A stretch of 64,000 bases of DNA from Chitinophagales bacterium (GTDB lineage: Bacteria > Bacteroidota > Bacteroidia > Chitinophagales > JADJOU01): contig JAURJQ010000002.1 of the NCBI GenBank assembly GCA_030832185.1, positions 1-64,000 on the forward strand. Direction: 5' to 3'. Position numbers and translations under genes: made by a program. Shown here piece by piece: positions 18 through 304 of the stretch (positions within the stretch are counted from its first letter, which is position 1; every line of letters starts with the position of its first letter). The notes under the pieces were generated by a model. That model was not told the DNA's origin. It saw only the letters and a program-made list of their open reading frames with translations, and searched no databases.

Positions 18-56
18 GGGGGCGTAGCTTCCCGCATTGCGCGGGACTAGAGCACC
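18..56 (+). repeat. broken 5' piece of tRNA-Ala with an inserted hairpin
   Basis: Bases 18–29 equal the first 12 bases of the intact tRNA-Ala at 67, and 47–56 equal tRNA bases 86–95. Between them the seven D-loop bases of the tRNA are replaced by a 17-base stem-loop, TCCCGC-ATTGC-GCGGGA in outline (30–46). The piece cannot fold as a tRNA and has no anticodon arm. It ends ten bases before the intact gene. Confidence 0.75.
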
Positions 57-66
57 AAAAAACACT

Positions 67-140
67 GGGGGCGTAGCTCAGCTGGCTAGAGCACCTGCCT
101 TGCACGCAGGGGGTCATCGGTTCGACTCCGTTCGCCTCCA
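67..140 (+). tRNA. tRNA-Ala (anticodon TGC)
   Basis: A 74-base cloverleaf can be drawn. The acceptor stem is GGGGGCG (67–73) with CGCCTCC (133–139), with one G·U pair and discriminator A140. The D stem is GCTC/GAGC, and the anticodon stem CCTGC/GCAGG (94–98, 106–110) encloses the loop CTTGCAC, giving anticodon TGC at 101–103. The T loop is TTCGACT (121–127); its stem has one U·U mismatch. CCA is not encoded. A strong terminator follows directly. The gene reads GCA and GCG-type alanine codons. Confidence 0.95.
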
Positions 141-144
141 CATT

Positions 145-176
145 AAAAAGACTACTCCAACCGGGTAGTCTTTTTT
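145..176 (+). terminator. Rho-independent terminator of tRNA-Ala
   Basis: GACTACTC (150–157) pairs with GGGTAGTC (163–170) with one G·U pair, flanked by an A run and a T run that extend the stem. It is nearly identical to the copy at 272–304. Confidence 0.85.
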
Positions 177-186
177 CGTTTATATT

Positions 187-225
187 GGGGTCATCTGTTT
201 CCCGTGCGTACGGGATTCGCCTCCA
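187..225 (+). repeat. broken 3' piece of tRNA-Ala with an inserted hairpin
   Basis: GGGGTCATC (187–195) matches tRNA bases 110–118 and TTCGCCTCCA (216–225) matches tRNA bases 131–140. The T-arm bases between them (119–130 of the tRNA) are replaced by 20 bases containing the perfect stem-loop TCCCGT-GCGT-ACGGGA. Confidence 0.75.
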
Positions 226-229
226 CCCA

Positions 230-268
230 TTTGGTCATCTGTTTCCCATATGTGCGGGATTCCCTCCA
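230..268 (+). repeat. second, more decayed 3' piece of tRNA-Ala with an inserted hairpin
   Basis: The layout matches the preceding piece: GGTCATC, then TGTTTCCC, a different 7–8 base loop, GCGGGA, then TTCCCTCCA, an eroded form of the tRNA 3' end. It is followed at once by a second copy of the tRNA terminator. Confidence 0.7.
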
Positions 269-271
269 TAT

Positions 272-304
272 AAAAAGACTACTCCAACTGGGTAGTCTTT
301 TTTT
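272..304 (+). terminator. duplicated copy of the tRNA-Ala terminator
   Basis: The stem GACTACTC/GGGTAGTC with A and T flanks is the same as at 145–176 apart from one loop base. The tRNA 3' end and its terminator therefore appear to have been duplicated as a unit about 127 bases downstream. Confidence 0.8.

Follow-up and report, generated by a model that had tools for sequence, protein, structure and literature searches.

Phages and genomic islands are known to land at tRNA genes, and partial copies of a tRNA near the intact gene are typical of att sites. The type III toxin-antitoxin systems of the ToxIN kind have tandem RNA-coding repeats next to a nuclease gene, and the Ssn enzymes of Neisseria are site-specific single-strand GIY-YIG nucleases with NTS repeats. 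A report on the T-even phage T6 describes SegB, a GIY-YIG homing endonuclease found beside tRNA genes of many isotypes, whose cleavage peaks lie inside tRNA genes and which drives tandem amplification of the tRNA-bearing segment (PMC13096335). The same logic would account for tandem tRNA copies that bracket a GIY-YIG gene on a chromosome. Among short dispersed palindromes, the CGTC REPs have no known transposase and some REPs are inserted in other palindromes (PMC3733652). In the present study, we compared with these systems a tRNA-Ala locus at the start of a 64,000-nucleotide stretch of DNA, the window, whose position 1 is the first base of contig C28 of the source genome (G000).

The tRNA-Ala locus of the window

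The intact tRNA-Ala(TGC) gene lies at 67..141 on the + strand (ARAGORN; Rfam RF00005, 63.9 bits). The original prediction placed one 5' piece and two 3' pieces of this gene around it, and all three are real when aligned to 67-141. The 5' piece, copy A (18..56, +), holds tRNA bases 1-12 and 20-29, both flanks matching the intact tRNA exactly, and has the hairpin TCCCGCATTGCGCGGGA (30..46, +) instead of the D loop. This hairpin is a 17-mer with a 6 bp stem which replaces tRNA bases 13-19, as judged by pattern, folding and alignment. The first 3' piece, copy B (187..227, +), was delimited by repeat analysis and alignment and holds bases 44-56 (with one mismatch) and 65-75; its T arm is partly replaced by the hairpin TCCCGTGCGTACGGGA (200..215, +), which on the same three grounds has a 6 bp stem and stands for bases 57-64. 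Copy C (230..268, +) is a direct repeat like B, 87% identical to it and more decayed, and folding of its decayed, imperfect hairpin TCCCATATGTGCGGGA (244..259, +) forms four outer pairs. Copy A ends at tRNA base 29, and B and C begin near base 44. The stems had been described as kept, which holds for A and B with their 6 bp but fails in C. The inserts measure 16-17 nt instead of the 17-20 bases proposed, and a hairpin does sit in an arm of each copy, although it replaces half of the arm and does not exchange the whole.

The tRNA terminator is duplicated, as had been claimed. The first copy (144..176, +) is an intrinsic-terminator-like hairpin with a T run, built on the inverted repeat 145-155/165-175, and its direct repeat (271..303, +) runs on into the flank that adjoins the single terminator in the same-genus relative G002. 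By direct-repeat search, the duplication spans 144-194 and 271-321 with 82% identity. In G002, a single tRNA-Ala and a single terminator stand between the flanks of the locus, including the one upstream of copy A. In the window, these flanks abut the broken pieces, which enclose the intact tRNA. The two states therefore differ by a tandem duplication or by the insertion of a tRNA-bearing unit. The relative G003 has tRNA-Ala pieces on the 5' side only, one of them with a decayed D-arm hairpin.

In Rfam searches, the pseudo-tRNA copies matched the tRNA family and no other. Plastid-ycf2 matches on the opposite strand of real tRNAs scored under the gathering cut-off and were rejected. There is no GIY-YIG gene at the window locus, and its flanking genes are mlaE, an ABC ATPase, mlaD and an MFS gene. 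We also observed an imperfect inverted repeat at 406-468 of the window (19 bp, 25 nt loop); a similar palindrome is the outer one of a nested pair in G001 (L104, ~1393-1459), with the hairpin TCCCGCACTTGCGGGA at its apex. What looks by eye like the 3' end of a 16S rRNA directly precedes the tRNA-Ala locus in G003 and tRNA-Ile in contig C4 of the source genome. In the 64 kb of the window, an Rfam search found no rRNA, which suggests a split rRNA operon.

Hairpin-armed tRNA copies and small GIY-YIG genes

In the source genome, the pattern TCCCGN{3,8}CGGGA has 20 sites against 2 for the reversed-pattern control, and TCCCGN6CGGGA has 13 against 0. Eight of the 20 sites lie in partial tRNA copies, of Ala-TGC (2), Ala-GGC (on C6 and C27), Ile, Asn (2) and His; the other 12 lie outside. 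The threshold of the partial-copy search missed the pieces of the window and the Ile piece, which were read directly. The copies keep most of the tRNA or just half of it, the Ala-GGC copy on C6 being the first of two tandem units of ~148 nt, and a copy of tRNA-Val carries other hairpins. The original prediction would have been refuted if the hairpin had no further copy near any tRNA of the genome or its relatives. This is clearly not the case, as it is present at Ala-GGC, Ile, Asn and His in the source genome and, phylum-wide, at many isotypes.

A pattern of the tRNA D arm followed by the hairpin, searched over named genomes, matched at least 119 stretches. Among the matches listed there are 80 loci: four titled Chlorobiota, two in candidate-phylum (Patescibacteria) MAGs, one in an unnamed bacterium, and the rest in genomes which by their names we take to be Bacteroidota. 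Within the order of the source genome, the pattern occurs in 10 of 396 genomes. Viral contigs gave 0 matches, and viral spread was set aside on this ground. A looser pattern gave scattered matches in 54 of 99 relatives, mostly without palindromic cores, and is not used as an argument here. A literature search found no account of hairpin-armed tRNA copies in Bacteroidota.

Among the 112 units listed, the hairpin stands directly 3' of GGTTAGAG in 99, nearly all of them tRNA-Asn copies. Forty-nine of these 112 lie upstream of an intact tRNA-Asn, the nearest at 62-87 nt and the tandem units ~70-100 nt long, and 26 lie downstream of it, 16 of them at 298-345 nt with a GIY-YIG ORF between. For a further 34, the examined stretch shows no intact tRNA closer than 1500 nt, and 3 are near another tRNA. 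The largest array has 11 near-identical units (L189), placed before the tRNA and the GIY-YIG gene, and a tRNA-His array of six units in G003 repeats the same tRNA coordinates. The same architecture is found inside long contigs of other genomes, sometimes all in one contig. As a separate observation, in two contigs of Patescibacteria MAGs (L177, 1-900, and L213) a piece of tRNA-Val with a hairpin arm is followed by a GIY-YIG ORF and then by the intact tRNA-Val, and L177 has a second GIY-YIG ORF upstream of tRNA-Thr.

At the tRNA-Asn locus of the source genome, a GIY-YIG ORF (PF01541, E=6.7e-15) lies between the intact tRNA and a hairpin-armed 3' copy. NCBIfam names no family for its protein, which has a weak sequence match to the UPF0213 structures 1zg2 and 1ywl (E 4e-4 and 1.6e-3), both titled hypothetical. 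Small GIY-YIG ORFs also adjoin tRNA genes for Val, Met, Arg (three anticodons), Glu, Phe, Lys, Pro, Gly, Asp and Thr, and at several loci the far side of the ORF is occupied by an incomplete copy of that tRNA in which one arm holds a palindrome. The nearest such locus at a tRNA-Ala-TGC is in G005, where the GIY-YIG ORF is broken by stops and no hairpin-armed copy was seen in the stretch read.

In order to examine this link independently of the hairpin, the GIY-YIG domain of the source Asn locus was searched against 395 genomes of the phylum. It matched in 80 of them, and all 29 loci retrieved besides the source locus were read. A TCCCG-type hairpin lies within 450 nt in 25 of the 29, and an intact tRNA (Asn, Gly, Asp or Phe) likewise in 25 of the 29. 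The density of hairpins at these loci is 1.33 per kb inside the 450-nt spans and 0.02 per kb outside (52 hairpins versus 1, ~60-fold). Long GIY-YIG genes, used as a control, had neither a hairpin (0/10) nor a tRNA (0/10). When small GIY-YIG genes were taken as the best matches per relative, 6 of 20 had a hairpin and 6 of 20 a tRNA; the statistical link of hairpin, tRNA and enzyme gene is therefore strong in the lineage of the source Asn gene and looser elsewhere.

The GIY-YIG domains group by the isotype of the adjacent tRNA. On a tree of 54 tRNA-adjacent domains (80 columns, with many forks unresolved), the isotype label changes 13 times against a shuffled mean of 19.6, and 0 of 200 shuffles were as low. 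For tRNA-Asn there are 2 changes against 16.5 in shuffles, in rows which come mostly from the pattern search, so that their share is inflated and near relatives are favoured. In four genomes of the genus, the stretch from tRNA to hairpin is nearly unchanged while the GIY-YIG gene diverges. The GIY-YIG gene itself was also seen in tandem, with six copies of ~381 nt in G617 (L373), five of 315 nt in G682 (L383) and four of ~322 nt in G577 (G577:C1:2899226-2900419).

Position and form of the hairpins

The positions were taken from 206 hairpins with a flank matching a nearby tRNA, a pooled set made up mostly of pattern-selected Asn units. They lie in the D, anticodon and T arms only, with left junctions at bases 12-65 and right junctions at bases 16-64. 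None of the 206 lies in the 5' acceptor strand, the left edge at base 12 being partly set by the 12-base flank needed for a match. Where both flanks could be assigned (157 units), the loss amounts to 10 bases in 115 units, to 4-9 in 37 and to at least 12 in 5. The usual junctions are 25|36 (Asn, His), 36|47 (Asn), 51|60 (Asp), 56|62 (Phe), 55|64 (Ala) and 12|19-20 (Ala, Ile), and each of them means the loss of half an arm. Junctions of these kinds also occur, in the anticodon and T arms, among the 42 hairpins of the hairpin-blind subset.

The search pattern fixes the five outer pairs and leaves six inner bases informative. In the pooled set of 119 distinct hairpins, the innermost variable pair next to the fixed stem is complementary (AT, CG or TA) in 116, against a shuffled mean of 47.7 and maximum of 68. 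The next inner pair is complementary in 87 (shuffled mean 61.0, maximum 74), and the central two bases are free, with 42 complementary (31.6 and 49). In the hairpin-blind set, the covariation of the variable pair is not significant (AT 23 and CG 3 of 26; shuffled maximum 26) because AT prevails. In the array of 11 units (L189), all 11 have a perfect outer stem beside a decaying D stem, and neighbouring units that are otherwise nearly identical read CACGTG in one and TACGTA in the other, so that both ends have changed symmetrically. Such symmetry, as far as sequence comparison can tell, may come from selection on the single strand or from hairpin-templated mutation.

Explanations of the module

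On balance, we favour the reading that the window is a GIY-less version of a recurrent tRNA-linked module of Bacteroidota, perhaps a decayed one and a relic. In the full module, a small GIY-YIG ORF (~80-130 aa) lies between a functional tRNA and a partial copy of that tRNA, often with further partial copies in tandem, and in the non-functional copies palindromic hairpins replace half of the D, anticodon or T arm. By analogy with phage SegB, the enzyme would cut tRNA genes, and repair between tRNA copies would give the tandem copies that bracket its gene. One tRNA copy would be kept functional because the cell needs it, and the spare copies would survive only with an arm swapped for a palindrome, which would disable them and alter the target. 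The hairpin may be the enzyme's own recognition structure, a resident palindrome recruited by the enzyme, or a mere mark of the spare copies. At the window locus, the enzyme gene, lost or never present, would have left copies A, B and C behind. Hairpin-armed copies also occur without a nearby GIY-YIG gene at a tRNA-Pro of G069, a tRNA-Ala of G007 and the six-unit His array of G003, so the enzyme may not be needed.

The likeness to SegB lies in a protein with a GIY-YIG catalytic domain that is linked to tRNA (25/29 versus 0/10 in the control) and in tandem tRNA arrays, where cutting and amplification by the enzyme are presumed by analogy. SegB differs in being phage-borne, whereas the present modules are chromosomal, and the accessible part of its description makes no mention of hairpin-armed copies (PMC13096335). 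Here, in addition, GIY-YIG proteins beside the same isotype tend to fall together, and the surplus tRNA copies carry disabling palindromes. A more specific proposal, which we put forward tentatively as rather less likely than not, is that the hairpin-armed copies are working parts of a mobile system of a new class, in which isotype-dedicated GIY-YIG nucleases home to one tRNA gene each; the hairpin would then serve as a single-strand recognition or self-immunity structure, the pseudo-tRNA arrays as immune or regulatory targets, and the dispersed palindromes would be traces of the same enzymes. The modules resemble the Ssn system in pairing a small putative GIY-YIG nuclease with a repeated sequence, and differ in that the repeats lie inside tRNA copies.

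It is also possible, if rather doubtful, that autonomous mini palindromes, REP-like and with an unknown enzyme, land in hairpin-forming DNA including tRNA arms and survive in redundant copies only, the GIY-YIG genes just sharing the same address. TCCCGN6CGGGA is indeed dispersed in 14 of 14 genomes, with 2-35 sites per genome against 0-4 in controls. In G396, 20 of 26 sites lie outside the tRNA-Asn locus; all 20 were read, and one of them (L326) sits precisely in the middle of an outer stem of 15 perfect bp. In G001 (L104), one stands at the apex of a larger palindrome. REPs within palindromes have already been reported (PMC3733652). The suggestion of the original prediction that a mini palindromic element is at work holds some truth, since the hairpin belongs to palindromes which are dispersed in the genome, with 12 of 20 sites in the source genome, like most of those in G396, elsewhere than in tRNA copies. 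Outer stems of at least 6 pairs were found at 7 of 45 non-tRNA sites (null mean 2.0, maximum 5), a weak excess, and insertion at the centre of outer palindromes was rejected as a general rule. As for a mobilising enzyme, RAYT (Y1_Tnp, PF01797) had no match in G000 or G002, and the TCCCG hairpin was absent at 19 of the 21 RAYT loci examined, out of 30, in other genomes; RAYT was therefore rejected as the mobiliser in the source genome and is not supported in the others. The ~60-fold density near the small GIY-YIG genes of the hairpin-independent search also speaks against this reading.

The present palindromes share with REP/RAYT systems and the CGTC REPs that they are short and dispersed. They differ in their tags, GTAG lying within 8 nt of 6 of the 206 tRNA hairpins and CGTC at 0 of 206, and in an insertion with loss of ~10 target bases at fixed tRNA coordinates. 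A different palindrome, CCTGCC..GGCAGG, is found in the GIY-YIG/tRNA modules of G012 and is itself dispersed there (15 versus 0 in the control), so the type of hairpin is not tied to the enzyme family alone. Other repeats were noted in the source genome: a CGTC-tagged REP-like palindrome, CGTCATTCCCGCGAAGGCGGGAATC (L027 1501; G000:C27:25626), a longer repeat containing the hairpin and common to two sites (L013 and L044 near 1501; G000:C1:8409 and C31:20150), and a region in which several unlike palindromes, the TCCCG hairpin among them, follow one another directly (L014 ~1380-1560; G000:C2:87614).

A functional RNA is improbable. Under this reading, a GIY-YIG enzyme that cuts tRNA or other RNA would be co-expressed with the hairpin-armed copies, which would act as a tandem tRNA-like decoy or antitoxin, or they would serve to process the enzyme's message; the pair would work much as type III toxin-antitoxin systems do. 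The arrays, in which as many as 11 near-identical units precede the tRNA and the GIY-YIG gene, the outer stem kept perfect in L189 while the D stem decays, the pooled covariation of the innermost variable pair and the constancy of the tRNA-to-hairpin stretch beside a diverging GIY-YIG gene are all consistent with it, and two array units fold better than shuffles (z -3.4 and -3.9). However, for copies A, B and C of the window folding has no clear advantage over shuffles (z -1.3, -1.6 and 0.0), the retained tRNA half varies between copies, the 5' array is missing in some modules, and hairpin-templated mutation can also give covariation. The modules resemble type III systems in having tandem repeats and an adjacent putative nuclease gene, and differ in the tRNA gene in between and in the enzyme fold.

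It is very improbable that the copies are what remains of att sites after genomic islands of the integrase type had used the tRNA genes. Partial copies near an intact tRNA are typical of such sites, but no integrase gene stands next to the window copies, whose neighbours are those named above. Moreover, the copies are separated by mere tens of bases, some are 5' pieces or form tandem arrays, and their hairpins sit at fixed places. Least probable of all is chance or an assembly artefact, which the start of the window at base 1 of a contig might suggest and which as a general cause is refuted by the far lower reversed-pattern controls (20 versus 2; 13 versus 0) and by the same structures in many independent assemblies, some within a single contig. 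The occurrence of this architecture in the interior of long contigs of other genomes also makes an assembly artefact unlikely in general.

The earlier interpretation is thus partly supported. Its second alternative, leftovers of repeated integration or recombination at this tRNA, agrees in part with the pieces, which resemble products of repeated duplication at tRNAs. It did not include the link with small GIY-YIG genes, the constant places of insertion, the arrays in tandem or the spread through the phylum. The presence of hairpin-bearing tRNA copies at many tRNA genes of a large phylum, often beside a small GIY-YIG gene, points to an overlooked parasite-like element. It is seemingly a much smaller parasite than phages and islands, living on single tRNA genes across the phylum, with one functional copy kept and the rest disabled in a stereotyped way. 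If the favoured reading is right, the module would explain odd tRNA fragments next to tRNA genes. It would also give an experimental handle on how GIY-YIG enzymes choose a tRNA isotype, and another on the origin of short dispersed palindromes without a known mobilising enzyme.
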